From assembly GCA_019787685.1 (NCBI GenBank), contig JAHNUO010000031.1, forward strand, positions 248,001-312,000: 64,000 bases of DNA. Reading direction: 5' to 3'. Each line of letters starts with the position of its first letter. The stretch's first letter is position 1. This DNA comes from Chiua virens. Taxonomy: Eukaryota > Basidiomycota > Agaricomycetes > Boletales > Boletaceae. The notes under the pieces are model-generated. The model did not search any database, was not told the origin of the DNA, and was given only the letters and a program-made list of their open reading frames with translations. This document shows, piece by piece, positions 1,918-9,075 of the stretch. The position numbers and the translations under genes were made by a program.

Positions 1918-4900
1918 TCACTTGGTGATATTTGAAGCTAATATACATAATTTAAAAAGTTGTTCATGATGACCAAAATGGCAAATGACTTACAAATAAG
2001 ATTCTTGGAAATCATATCCAAAAGGAGTTCTGTCATTTTCTCACTATCCTGAAAGTCATATTGAGAAATAAGCTCAGAGACTGCTTTCTTGACTTTGAGG
2101 ATTGTTTCAGATGATTCATAAAGCTGGGTTGCTACCATGATTGGGTCTTGAACAGCTTTCTGGTGTAAGAAGAATGAATGCTCCAGGATAATGGCAATGG
2201 CTACAAATATTAATGGAGATAGTTACTGAATTTGGCACTCAGAAAACTGACCAATGCCTAAATGAAGTGCCATGTGCCATGTAGTACTATCTTGCAAAGA
2301 AGACTGGATTATGGAATAAATAGTAGGTAGACTGGCATGATAAAATCATACTCACAATGGATATGCACTTTCTTGCTAGTGCACTGTAATCAACAGGAAT
2401 ATAGGGCTGAGGATATTGTATATTAATTGATTGAAAAAAAAATCAGAAGACTAAACAGAAGACTAAAATGGATAAACATACATCAGAGGCTTGCAAAATC
2501 TATGAAGTTGATATCATTATTTATACTGCAAAAAGTCCAACACATGACAAACCTCCTATAAAACATAAGGCATATAAAGCAAAATGAAAATTTGCTCATA
2601 CCTCCTAATGAATTGAAATAAATAGGGATTAAAATATTTGAAAATTAAGGGGCATATAAATGCTTACATCCTATAGAATGTCAAAATAATCAATAAAGTT
2701 GAATGGAGTGAAATACATACCAGCTATTATAGACATTATAAAGGAAGTTATGATAAACAGTACAGATCAGCATCCTGCTAGAAGCCCATTCACAATCAGA
2801 GCACTTACTTCCTATGAATGGCAGGACAGGGGGAAGGACAGAGGGGCATGGATCAGCATCCTTCTGGAAGCCCATTCACAATCAGAGCACTTACAAACTA
2901 TGAATGGCAGGACAGGGGCAAGGACAGAGGGGCATGGATCAGCATCCTTCTGGAAGCCCATTCACAATCAGAGCACTTACTCCCTATGAATGGCAGGACA
3001 GGGGCAAGGACAGAGGGGCATGGATCAGCATCCTTCTGGAAGCCCATTCACAATCAGAGCACTTACTCCCTATGAATGGCAGGACAGGGGCAAGGACAGA
3101 GGGGCATGGATCAGCATCCTTCTGGAAGCCCATTCACAATCAGAGCACTTACAAGCTATGAATGGCAGGACAGGGGCAAGGACAGAGGGGCATGGATCAG
3201 CATCCTTCTGGAAGCCCATTCACAATCAGAGCACTTACTCCCTATGAATGGCAGGACAGGGGCAAGGACAGAGGGGCATGGATCAGCATCCTTCTGGAAG
3301 CCCATTCACAATCAGAGCACTTACTCCCTATGAATGGCAGGACAGGGGCAAGGACAGAGGGGCATGGATCAGCATCCTTCTGGAAGCCCATTCACAATCA
3401 GAGCACTTACTCGCTATGAATGGCAGGACAGGGGCAAGGACAGAGGGGCATGGATCAGCATCCCTCTGGAAGCCCATTCACAATCAGAGCACTTACAAGC
3501 TATGAATGGCAGGACAGGGGCAAGGACAGAGGGGCATGGATCAGCATCCTTCTGGAAGCCCATTCACAATCAGAGCACTTACAAACTATGAATGGCAGGA
3601 CAGGGGCAAGGACAGAGGGGCATGGATCAGCATCCTTCTGGAAGCCCATTCACAATCAGAGCACTTACAAACTATGAATGGCAGGACAGGGGCAAGGACA
3701 GAGGGGCATGGATCAGCATCCTTCTGGAAGCCCATTTATAATCAGAGCACTTACTCGCTATGAATGGCAGGACAGTGGCAAGGACAGAGGGGCATGGATC
3801 AGCATCCCTCTGGAAGCCCATTCACAATCAGAGCACTTACAAACTATGAATGGCAGGACAGGGGCAAGGACAGGAGGGCATGGATCAGCATCCTTCTGGA
3901 AGCCCATTCACAATCAGAGCACTTACAAGCTATGAATGGCAGGACAGGGGCAAGGACAGAGGGGCATGGATCAGCATCCTTCTGGAAGCCCATTCACAAT
4001 CAGAGCACTTACAATCTATGAATGGCAGGACAGGGGCAAGGACAGAGGGGCATGGATCAGCATCCCTCTGGAAGCCCATTCACAATCAGAGCACTTACTC
4101 CCTATGAATGGCAGGACAGGGGCAAGGACAGAGGGGCATGGATCAGCATCCCTCTGGAAGCCCATTCACAATCAGAGCACTTACTCCCTATGAATGGCAG
4201 GACAGGGGCAAGGACAGAGGGGCATGGATCAGCATCCTTCTGGAAGCCCATTCACAATCAGAGCACTTACTCGCTATGAATGGCAGGACAGGGGCAAGGA
4301 CAGAGGGGCATGGATCAGCATCCTTCTGGAAGCCCATTCACAATCAGAGCACTTACAAACTATGAATGGCAGGACAGGGGGAAGGACAGAGGGGCATGGA
4401 TCAGCATCCTTCTGGAAGCCCATTCACAATCAGAACACTTACTCCCTATGAATGGCAGGACAGGGGCAAGGACAGAGGGGCATGGATCAGCATCCTTCTG
4501 GAAGCCCATTCACAACCAGAACACTTACTCCCTATGAATGGCAGGACAGGGGCAAGGACAGAGGGGCATGGATCAGCATCCTTCTGGAAGCCCATTCACA
4601 ACCAGAGCACTTACTGGCTATGAATGGCAGGACAGGGGCAAGGACAGAGGGGCATGGATCAGCATCCTTCTGGAAGCCCATTCACAATCAGAGCACTTAC
4701 AAGCTATGAATGGCAGGACAGGGGCAAGGACAGAGGGGCATGGATCAGCATTCCTCTGGAAGCCCATTCACAATCAGAGCACTTACGAACTATGAATGGC
4801 AGGACAGGGGCAAGGACAGAGGGGCATGGATCAGCATCCCTCTGGAAGCCCATTCACAATCAGAGCACTTACTCGCTATGAATGGCAGGACAGGGGCAAG

Positions 4901-7900
4901 GACAGAGGGGCATGGATCAGCATTCCTCTGGAAGCCCATTCACAATCAGAGCACTTACAAACTATGAATGGCAGGACAGGGGCAAGGACAGAGGGGCATG
5001 GATCAGCATCCTTCTGGAAGCCCATTCACAATCAGAGCACTTACAATCTATGAATGGCAGGACAGGGGCAAGGACAGAGGGGCATGGATCAGCATCCTTC
5101 TGGAAGCCCATTCACAATCAGAGCACTTACTCGCTATGAATGGCAGGACAGGGGCAAGGACAGAGGGGCATGGATCAGCATCCTTCTGGAAGCCCATTCA
5201 CAATCAGAGCACTTACTCCCTATGAATGGCAGGACAGGGGCAAGGACAGGAGGGCATGGATCAGCATCCCTCTGGAAGCCCATTCACAATCAGAGCACTT
5301 ACTCGCTATGAATGGCAGGACAGGGGCAAGGACAGAGGGGCATGGATCAGCATCCCTCTGGAAGCCCATTCACAATCAGAGCACTTACTTGCTATGAATG
5401 GCAGGACAGGGGCAAGGACAGAGGGGCATGGATCAGCATCCTTCTGGAAGCCCATTCACAATCAGAGCACTTACAAACTATGAATGGCAGGACAGGGGGA
5501 AGGACAGAGGGGCATGGATCAGCATCCCTCTGGAAGCCCATTCACAATCAGAGCACTTACAAACTATGAATGGCAGGACAGGGGCAAGGACAGAGGGGCA
5601 TGGATCAGCATCCCTCTGGAAGCCCATTCACAATCAGAGCACTTACAAACTATGAATGGCAGGACAGGGGCAAGGACAGAGGGGCATGGATCAGCATCCT
5701 TCTGGAAGCCCATTCACAATCAGAGCACTTACTCGCTATGAATGGCAGGACAGGGGCAAGGACAGAGGGGCATGGATCAGCATCCCTCTGGAAGCCCATT
5801 CACAATCAGAGCACTTACTCCCTATGAATGGCAGGACAGGGGCAAGGACAGAGGGGCATGGATCAGCATCCTTCTGGAAGCCCATTCACAATCAGAGCAC
5901 TTACTCCCTATGAATGGCAGGACAGGGGCAAGGACAGAGGGGCATGGATCAGCATCCTTCTGGAAGCCCATTCACAATCAGAGCACTTACTTGCTATGAA
6001 TGGCAGGACAGGGGCAAGGACAGGAGGGCATGGATCAGCATCCCTCTGGAAGCCCATTCACAATCAGAGCACTTACTCGCTATGAATGGCAGGACAGGGG
6101 CAAGGACAGAGGGGCATGGATCAGCATCCCTCTGGAAGCCCATTCACAATCAGAGCACTTACTCGCTATGAATGGCAGGACAGGGGCAAGGACAGAGGGG
6201 CATGGATCAGCATCCTTCTGGAAGCCCATTCACAATCAGAGCACTTACTCCCTATGAATGGCAGGACAGGGGGAAGGACAGAGGGGCATGGATCAGCATC
6301 CTTCTGGAAGCCCATTCACAATCAGAGCACTTACAAACTATGAATGGCAGGACAGGGGCAAGGACAGAGGGGCATGGATCAGCATCCTTCTGGAAGCCCA
6401 TTCACAATCAGAGCACTTACTCCCTATGAATGGCAGGACAGGGGGAAGGACAGAGGGGCATGGATCAGCATCCTTCTGGAAGCCCATTCACAATCAGAGC
6501 ACTTACAAACTATGAATGGCAGGACAGGGGCAAGGACAGAGGGGCATGGATCAGCATCCTTCTGGAAGCCCATTCACAATCAGAGCACTTACTCCCTATG
6601 AATGGCAGGACAGGGGCAAGGACAGAGGGGCATGGATCAGCATCCCTCTGGAAGCCCATTCACAATCAGAGCACTTACTCGCTATGAATGGCAGGACAGG
6701 GGCAAGGACAGAGGGGCATGGATCAGCATCCTTCTGGAAGCCCATTCACAATCAGAGCACTTACTCCCTATGAATGGCAGGACAGAGGGGCAAGGACAGA
6801 GGGGCATGGATCAGCATCCTTCTGGAAGCCCATTCATAATCAGAGCACTTACTTGCTATGAATGGCAGGACAGGGGCAAGGACAGGAGGGCATGGATCAG
6901 CATCCCTCTGGAAGCCCATTCACAATCAGAGCACTTACTCGCTATGAATGGCAGGACAGGGGCAAGGACAGAGGGGCATGGATCAGCATCCCTCTGGAAG
7001 CCCATTCACAATCAGAGCACTTACTCGCTATGAATGGCAGGACAGGGGCAAGGACAGAGGGGCATGGATCAGCATCCTTCTGGAAGCCCATTCACAATCA
7101 GAGCACTTACAAACTATGAATGGCAGGACAGGGGCAAGGACAGAGGGGCATGGATCAGCATCCTTCTGGAAGCCCATTCACAATCAGAGCACTTACAATC
7201 TATGAATGGCAGGACAGGGGCAAGGACAGAGGGGCATGGATCAGCATTCTTCTGGAAGCCCATTCACAATCAGAGCACTTACTCCCTATGAATGGCAGGA
7301 CAGGGGGAAGGACAGAGGGGCATGGATCAGCATCCCTCTGGAAGCCCATTCACAATCAGAGCACTTACTTCCTATGAATGGCAGGACAGGGGCAAGGACA
7401 GTGGGGCATAGATGATCCAGCATCCTCATTTACAATCACAAGGATGTCTCACCTTTTATGAATAGGACAAGAATTTCTTTCACTACAGATCTCATTCACT
7501 GCATAGAAATTCACACACCTTAACATGTGGAAACCATGATCCAATTCCTTCCACCAATATCTGCTGTGCAGAATCTGTCAATGGTTCCATGTTCTCATGT
7601 ATATCCTTAATGACAGGTATCAGGACCCTGTAAAATGATTTAATAGATATAACCCATAATCCAGAAAATCCATATAAATTACCTCCTAAAACCATACTCA
7701 ATGCAAAGCAGGATGTTTGTGTGTTGTGTAGTCACAAGCAGCATTTGCAATGCTTCTTCATCCAAGGCCCCCACAGTCCTTTTCAAGAGAAGTTTACACC
7801 CCTCATTTGATTTGTGCAGTTCTATGTACATTAAAATCAGTTTGACCATGAGACATGTATATTATACATACCTCTTAACTCCACATATGCATTTGGTGGA

Positions 7901-9075
7901 TGCCTCATCTTTTGTACCCTCTCCCATGTAGGATTCCCTTTCAGCATTCTCTCAGCATTCTGCTGTCCAATTGCAACCCTTCTCTCATGAGAAAGCTCTT
8001 GTTCCTCAGGTGTCAAGGCTGCCATCCCTTGTATCAGCAGTGCATCACATTTTGTGAATACAAGTACTACAGGCACTGCAAATAGTATGAGAAAAACAAC
8101 TCCATACATCCATCAGGAACACTTACCACTCCCTGTGTCACATTCATTGAAAAACATTTCCTCAGCAGCCAAGACAGCTCGGTGGTACTGGTCCATTGGA
8201 ATACAGTACCTATTCAGTCACAATGTTGTCATTGTCAGTGTGGCATAAATGCTACTATCTCTCCTTACCAGATAGCATGGACTCGCTTCTTGAGGTGTGC
8301 TGTCTTTGCACGCGATGCAACAAACTCCTTCATCTGTTTAAATTCTCCGATGCTACCAGCTTCGAAGCCCTGTGAGTCATGAAAGATAAAATTTGGGTTG
8401 CTTCGAAAGACCAATTCGTTCTCGATGTCATGCATTCCGCGCTTGAGACGTGTTAGAAAAATGTTACTGATCAGGACTCCACGGTAGCCATTTAACTCAC
8501 GTCCCGGGATTCCTGGATCTGTGCTAGATCGACCTGATCGCAGACTATCAGTGCGCCCGCATCGTCACGGACATCTCATTTAAGCATACCTCATTCCCAT
8601 CTCCATCAAGGATCACTGGATCTTCCGTGGAGTTGCAGATTTGCTTGAGTATCGTGGTCTTCCCAGCATTGGCTCGGCCAATGATAAGGATTCTGAACCG
8701 CCCGAATTTATTTCTGATGCCATCCATCTGCATGATAGGTTCTGCGGATGATTCCTCAGGAAATTCGGCGGAAGTTCCTGCGAGAGGTTCTGCAGGTGGC
8801 TCTGTGAGAGGTTCTGCGGGTGGCGCTGCGAGAAATTCTGTGGATGGTTCTGCGAGAGGTTCTGTAGGTGGCTCTGCGAGAGGTTCTGTGGGTGGCTCTG
8901 CGAGAGATTCTGTGGATGGTTCTGCGAGAGGTTCTGTGGGTGGCTCTGCGAGAGGTTCTGTGGATGGTTCTGCGAGAGGTTCTGTGGGTGACTCTGCGAG
9001 ATATTCTGTGGAAGGTCTCGTGGGGGCCTTGGAGCGAAAGAACGGGAAGCGAGCGCGAGCCATAAGCCTTTTCAT
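1918..9075 (-). CDS. P-loop GTPase-like protein with a one-codon micro-exon array
   Basis: The coding exons by splice signal and phase are 9075-8590, 8533-8501, 8441-8269, 8209-8127, 8075-7872, 7821-7683 and 7627-7519. Then come 54 three-base exons (7371 to 2809) and one-codon exons at 2723-2721, 2670-2668, 2604-2602 and 2555-2553. Exons 2499-2482, 2383-2356, 2200-1994 and 1937-1918 complete it. The sum is 1674 nt, about 557 residues. Residues 21-113 are octapeptide repeats. Walker A GRANAGKT is at 133-140, DSQG at about 195-198 and TKCD (G4 position) at 266-269, as in Era/AIG1-like G domains common in Agaricomycetes. Residues 410-467 come from one-codon exons. The C-terminal part contains IAIILEHSFFLHQ. 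An alternative end reads on to 1938 without the last intron. The G domain is secure; the micro-exon model rests on splice motifs and phase only. Function unknown. Confidence 0.75.
2482..2808 (-). other. Non-repetitive micro-exon cluster beyond the array
   Basis: The last array codon (2811-2809) is followed by an 85-nt intron whose first half is array sequence and second half unique, ending ATAATAG. Then come CTG, a 50-nt intron (GTATGT to CTATAG), GAT, a 63-nt intron (GTAAGC to CATTAG), GAG, a 46-nt intron (GTATGA to TATAG), GAG, a 53-nt intron (GTTTGT to CATAG) and an 18-nt exon at 2499-2482 encoding ILQASD with a GTATGT donor. These introns do not resemble the 86-bp unit, yet keep the exon-of-one-codon layout and phase 0. 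Confidence 0.65.
2764..7440 (-). repeat. 86-bp tandem array of introns plus one-codon exons
   Basis: There are about 53 full 86-bp copies plus degenerate ends. On the minus strand each copy reads three variable bases, then GTAAGTGCTCTGATTG, a second CTGAT about 40 nt before the acceptor, a long C/T tract and CCATTCATAG. That is an 83-nt intron with a canonical donor and acceptor. The variable triplets on the gene strand are GGA 16 times, CGA 12, TTT 12, CTT 4, ATT 3, CAA 3, GAA 2, CCA 1 and TTC 1 (54 in all). The intron body has only about ten recurrent variants, such as CTT/CCT, GGGGC/GGGGA and AGAGGG/AGGAGG on the + strand. One copy near 6780 carries a 2-bp insertion inside the intron. A last decayed unit at 7378-7440 has AA in place of the acceptor AG. 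Confidence 0.9.
8737..9015 (-). repeat. 24-bp coding minisatellite (octapeptide repeat)
   Basis: Eleven units and a partial one encode an eight-residue motif close to PPTEPLAE or PSTEPLAE in exon 1 of the GTPase-like gene. Because the unit is a multiple of three, several other frames on both strands are also open here; those are shadows. The N-terminal four units are the most regular and those nearest the G domain (such as TSAEFPEE) the most diverged. Confidence 0.9.

Follow-up and report, generated by a model that had tools for sequence, protein, structure and literature searches.

Predicted one-codon exons between near-identical introns in a GTP-binding protein gene family of the bolete Chiua virens

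The stretch analysed here (the window) comprises 64,000 nucleotides (nt) of the genome of Chiua virens (Boletaceae), at positions 248001-312000 of contig C31 in an assembly of 48.3 Mb and 136 contigs. Its minus strand carries a gene for a putative GTP-binding protein in which an 86-bp tandem unit, detected by Tandem Repeats Finder (TRF) in 54.0 copies at 2765-7413 with 96% matches, lies between exons encoding the G domain and exons encoding the C-terminal part. Very probably, this array is a row of 54 one-codon exons placed between near-identical introns of 83 bases.

When read on the minus strand, the region 2764-7375 resolves into 54 units, all 86 bases long except one of 88, and each made of an intron-like GTAAGT...CATTCATAG sequence (83 bases) followed by three bases. 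ATAG-NNN-GTAAGT sites occur 54 times, with a spacing of 86 in 52 of 53 cases and of 88 in the other. The array noted in a preliminary description of this DNA is confirmed; the triplet is found throughout, and one intron measures 85 nt. The triplets take nine forms over all 54 units (GGA 16, TTT 12, CGA 12, CTT 4, ATT 3, CAA 3, GAA 2, TTC 1 and CCA 1), none of them a stop, and the predicted residues run EGIFRRQGRGFGFGRRQGG... Outside the triplet, 73 of 83 positions are invariant across the 52 units of equal length.

Conceptual splicing of the gene yields a messenger RNA of 1,674 nt that is one open frame of 558 codons including the stop (557 residues). This model contains 58 one-codon exons, 54 in the array and four more after it that are separated by different introns and followed by exons of 18, 28 (tentative), 207 and 20 nt. 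The seven exons upstream of the array encode GRANAGKT, DSQG and TKCD, so that the motifs that define TRAFAC-type GTPases, GxxxxGK[ST], DxxG and TKxD, are all present. The features are as follows, from the spliced model unless another basis is given in brackets.

8590..9075, minus strand: exon 1, N-terminal 8-residue repeats and P-loop GRANAGKT (predicted start codon in agreement with paralog P0001)
8501..8533, minus strand: exon 2
8269..8441, minus strand: exon 3, DSQG
8127..8209, minus strand: exon 4
7872..8075, minus strand: exon 5, TKCD
7683..7821, minus strand: exon 6
7519..7627, minus strand: exon 7, ending ...SWFPHVK in phase 0
7372..7518, minus strand: intron 7, 147 nt, containing a degenerate unit (sequence reading)
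2809..7371, minus strand: array in which 53 introns, all of 83 nt except one of 85 nt, separate 54 one-codon exons (TRF, site spacing and spliced model)
2721..2723, minus strand: one-codon exon CTG (model and paralog comparison)
2668..2670, minus strand: one-codon exon GAT (model and paralog comparison)
2602..2604, minus strand: one-codon exon GAG (model and paralog comparison)
2553..2555, minus strand: one-codon exon GAG (model and paralog comparison)
2482..2499, minus strand: 18-nt exon (model and paralog comparison)
2356..2383, minus strand: 28-nt exon, tentative, also in distant paralogs
1994..2200, minus strand: C-terminal exon, 207 nt, ...AIAIILEHSFFLHQ...
1918..1937, minus strand: last exon with stop, 20 nt

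Several details first proposed from the letters alone are retained in this model, namely that the upstream exon leaves at 7519 in phase 0, that reading through it meets an in-frame stop (7494-7492), and that the array sits between the G-domain and C-terminal exons of a single gene. The exon at 2200-1994 is open, and one open frame crosses the whole model. In other subfamilies exon 7 perhaps continues into the degenerate first unit, the frame being open by eye in some. The 8-residue repeats of exon 1 (e.g. TEPLAEPS) correspond to a 24-bp tandem repeat at 8778-9011.

The array of the window is one of many in this genome. The unit pattern has 1,045 exact matches genome-wide against 0 for the same pattern read backwards, and chance periodicity was rejected on this control. 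A search with the upstream exons gave 40 scored family candidates. Thirty of these (L009-L038) were read at their array end, and in 29 the last G-domain exon is immediately followed by a one-codon chain; arrays are also present in four more members (4/4, L042-L045); L046 is an additional stretch of the L035 gene. In L037 (C10 near 1135645) a few units are followed by unrelated DNA, with another unit in the same orientation at a distance of ca. 14 kb beyond. Among the 23 unit clusters listed, 21 directly follow the G domain of a family member in the same orientation (coordinates show this for 20, reading for L044), and two (C3:645378-645577 and C10:1121554) have no family assignment. The predicted residues vary by gene, with SDDLYLDGLLYDRPLR in L013, QYQKKKKGYGKKFKEK in L026 and GGGRFWWWGWWERRWER in L032, while the closing residues are L-D-E or M-D-E in the arrays of the window gene, L039, L041, L042 and L044, and L-D-M in that of L040. 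L039 shares 96% identity with the window gene upstream, yet the two have 36 and 54 array units, respectively, and the ordered codon runs of at least three that they have in common are the first three codons, one run of four, one of five and three post-array codons. Two pairs of loci on different contigs, L027/L028 and L030/L031, have identical codon rows in the stretch read; either they were duplicated recently or the assembly contains two haplotypes.

Codon statistics were computed on 551 triplets from 28 loci. In this set, L028 (codon rows identical to those of L027), L031 (rows duplicating those of L030) and L037 (broken array) were omitted, the longer L039-L041 replaced L010, L011 and L034, and L043-L046 were outside. 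Chains were built from AG-NNN-GT sites, a procedure that fixes the length of the spacer and leaves the codon free, and counts were limited to the best chain of each locus, to the exclusion of units past breaks (L015, L024 and L033). No stop was found among the 551 triplets, compared with 52 expected from position frequencies; 5,000 within-locus shuffles gave a mean of 50.0 stops and a minimum of 32. The deficit is seen for both stop contexts. TAN triplets consist of 53 TAT and 0 TAA, whereas with first bases other than T 65 triplets end in A and 32 in another base; TGN triplets consist of 27 TGG or TGT and 0 TGA, against 184 A-ending and 6 other (Fisher p = 2e-6 and 6e-6, respectively, with each codon taken once per locus). 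The same 551 triplets read on the opposite strand contain 13 stops. Among the 1,045 units genome-wide, TAA and TAG are both at 0, TGA occurs five times, and TAY or TGY 152 times. A or T occupies the third position of 93% of the 551 triplets, and most amino acids are encoded by one or two codons, which perhaps reflects donor-site context.

Length and variability point in the same direction. In the array stretches examined, an AG lies exactly 3 nt upstream of 542 of 542 GTAAGT donors (534 by the strict pattern and 8 by eye), and genome-wide the spacer is of 3 nt in 983 units, of 0-2 nt in one and of 4-12 nt in one. Over 24 loci, mean diversity is 0.597 (0.413-0.674) at codon sites and 0.036 (0-0.165) at intron sites. 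L013 combines 15 identical introns with 7 codons in use; its introns show 0 changes over 83 sites, and those of L040 and L042 show 1 each, with 8 and 6 codons in use, respectively. Homogeneous introns next to diverse codons suggest concerted evolution together with selection for codon diversity. Beyond the array, the window gene shares 11 of the 12 bases of the four one-codon exons with L041 or L042, while the introns there are 56-77% identical.

Intron length ranges from 49 to 108 nt and is 83 nt in 422 of 523; a branch-like CTRAY motif lies 12-60 nt from the intron end in 441 of the 523, at 45 nt in 399, and from the CTRAY nearest to the acceptor onwards the sequence is AG-free in all 441. 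A special RNA structure of the intron was ruled out (z-score -0.32).

The spliced model matches 776 proteins, 120 of which are among the matches listed; searches with the C-terminal regions matched 2 and 9 proteins. At least ten proteins from jgi/lgn contigs (1.1-2.3 kb) read uninterrupted into the C-terminal part, seven of them being P0004, P0016, P0017, P0080, P0102, P0106 and P0113, and three (P0121, P0124 and P0126) being without the N-terminal part. These uninterrupted frames suggest that the contigs are most simply complementary DNA (cDNA). Inspection by eye shows WFP and the C-terminal helix separated by a variable stretch in each of the ten. P0102 and P0126 have 61 of 76 residues the same before the junction and 139 of 173 after it, and differ in sequence and length in between; P0004 and P0121 likewise agree at 87 of 120 residues before and 50 of 69 after, and differ between. 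After the variable stretch, the latter two resume with NLD, to be compared by eye with the LDE that follows the Chiua array. The annotated Suillus models P0118 and P0123 have no more than a short stretch at this junction, and this difference may be real or an artefact of the gene models.

Taken together, stop avoidance, the near-constant length of 3 nt, a hypervariability that is restricted to the triplet, a frame that stays open throughout the gene, the one-codon exons kept after the array in diverged paralogs and the uninterrupted frames of relatives with a variable segment at the junction support the coding reading of the preliminary description. A number of observations weigh against it. 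Splicing is predicted here from the DNA sequence, and the jgi/lgn contigs are presumed to be cDNA from their uninterrupted frames. Twelve Chiua gene models are among the matches listed, none covering more than 67% of the query and none extending past exon 7. L033 has units with 5-nt and 2-nt spacers, in a stretch outside the 542 donors; five TGA triplets occur among the 1,045 units, one of them in L045, in whose array the donor of two units is GTCAGT. In the post-array exons, L040 has ATG for GAG, with 10 of 12 bases kept and introns 88-93% identical, and keeps 9 of 12 bases when compared with L041 or L042, while in the 18-nt exon the window gene has only 8 of 18 bases in common with L041 or L042. 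Finally, the branch-like motif is missing from 82 of the 523 introns by the pattern used. The two off-length units of L033 are 88 bases apart, at C2:2027655-2027767, and are the sole ones genome-wide by the patterns used.

Other explanations were weighed against these data. The array might be spliced and form a degenerate linker for which any residues suffice, selection acting only against stops. The predicted residues are of low complexity and model confidence around the corresponding stretch of P0004 is low (see below), as such a linker would have it; neutral units should, however, vary alike, whereas codon sites are on average ca. 17-fold more different than intron sites and different codons are frequent in each gene, which makes this explanation rather unlikely. 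It is very improbable that the repeats are a minisatellite within one long intron that is removed whole, leaving the triplets untranslated. They are tandem, near-identical and fast-changing, the annotated Chiua models end before the array and its splicing is a prediction from sequence, all of which would fit; yet stops are avoided on the coding strand only, the spacing is of three bases with changes concentrated in the triplet, and splice-like borders are found on every unit counted. A plain non-coding minisatellite was rejected since stop avoidance and three-base spacing indicate coding constraint. That introner-like elements recently spread into an ordinary coding segment, landing between its codons, whose diversity would then be old sequence, is scarcely credible: identical introns do adjoin diverse codons (up to 15 introns and 7 codons, in L013), but dispersal hardly reaches every single codon boundary, the copies cluster at one junction of one family and unit number and order differ between paralogs. 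Introners dispersed over unrelated genes were also rejected, since 21 of the 23 clusters listed follow the family G domain.

The array is best read as coding, within a family of putative GTPases. With the Pfam cut-off for PF01926 (MMR_HSR1) at 21.9 bits, P0008 (28.0), P0016 (26.8), P0102 (23.7) and P0106 (22.4) score above it, P0104 (21.9), P0004 (21.8) and P0001 (20.9) at or below it, and P0121, which is without the N-terminal part, has no match. NACHT and ankyrin families were absent from the Pfam scans of these eight family proteins (five at E<=0.1, three at E<=0.01), and P0001 and P0008 have a sub-threshold match to nSTAND_NTPase5 (15 bits, cut-off 34). In an AlphaFold model of P0004 based on 13 sequences (mean predicted local distance difference test, pLDDT, 71; predicted template modelling score, pTM, 0.56), the variable stretch after WFPH is placed at the end of helix 292-309, where confidence falls from 65 to 47, and residues 305-341, the end of this stretch and the following linker, are below 50. 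Foldseek and VIA-align matched the G domain only generically (EngB, IRG, G-alpha, septin and others within ca. 1 Z unit), with IRG tied with the other generic matches, and the protein is not assigned here to IRG or another specific GTPase family.

According to the preliminary description, no described gene with such an array is known to its author. As a statement on the literature this does not hold: three papers (PMC4986451, PMC10197012, PMC3689799), whose statements trace to Iotti et al. 2012, report that alternative splicing of multiple 3-bp exons, or "tens of codon-sized microexons", diversifies the nank genes of Tuber melanosporum. Both cases involve tens of 3-bp exons per gene (54 in the array and four further ones predicted here) in an expanded fungal gene family, and in both they are thought to diversify a protein segment. 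Unlike the nank genes, which are of NOD-like receptor (NLR) type with NACHT and ankyrin and belong to an ascomycete, the genes described here form a bolete GTPase family in another phylum, and neither of those families appeared in the Pfam scans above. Fungal NLRs with internally conserved WD, TPR or ANK repeats (PMC4986451) similarly have highly similar tandem repeats in a conflict-gene family, but there the whole repeat is protein, whereas here one codon per 86-base unit would be. Fungal introner-like elements (PMC4457414) also comprise many near-identical spliceosomal introns; the present ones, among the clusters listed, are confined to a single junction within one family. Splicing of very short exons is described for Trichoderma Xlr2 (PMC11121469), Fusarium CYP621A (one nucleotide; PMC12940212) and human RPS24 (3 bp; PMC12686416), as single or few exons and not in a tandem array. 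A literature search that was not in every part aimed at arrays, and that covered few subscription papers or preprints, recognised no such array in a basidiomycete or in a GTPase family. Codon-sized microexons as a kind are already known; what is new, as far as searched, is their occurrence in this phylum and protein family and between near-identical tandem introns.

Splicing of the array would give a 54-residue hypervariable segment in a GTP-binding protein. Each intron would be removed by intron definition, given its GTAAGT donor, a branch-like CTGAT 45 nt from the end and an AG-free pyrimidine tract, and exons of 3 nt would be manageable because short introns are presumably recognised across the intron. 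Every triplet would be retained because the introns would be removed one by one, each removal putting a normal exon ahead of the next GTAAGT. The near-identical introns may serve as recombination handles for unequal crossing-over and conversion, by which single residues could be added, dropped or permuted without frameshift while selection would keep the codons diverse; gain, loss or skipping of a unit keeps the frame because the exons are whole codons in phase 0. Skipping may also yield additional splice variants, as is reported of the truffle nank genes.

The weakest step is that the segment, at the junction of G domain and C-terminal helices, would be the recognition surface of a GTPase in nonself recognition or another conflict. 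A recognition role is possible by likeness to fungal NLRs. In the WD, TPR and ANK repeats of the latter few positions vary. More tentatively, and with some doubt, we propose a residue-by-residue cassette system in which one exon per residue of the recognition segment, germline codon reshuffling and in-frame skipping would yield a very large number of protein variants. Dozens of GTPase genes would then serve boletes as a repertoire for nonself recognition that is not of NLR type and has arisen in convergence with the NLRs of truffles, and the introns would be kept near-identical as splice modules and as handles for recombination. Should the predicted splicing take place, a single mushroom genome would have ca. 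1,000 one-codon exons in tandem arrays, missed by the Chiua gene models among the matches listed. The arrays would then test how short serial exons the spliceosome can handle and be a second fungal case in which a protein is diversified codon by codon, this time in a different phylum and protein family, and an unstudied GTPase family would become a candidate recognition repertoire.

Finally, a probable transposase remnant, interrupted by stops and frame changes and presumably of Tc1/mariner type, is found at 500-1500 on the plus strand of the window.

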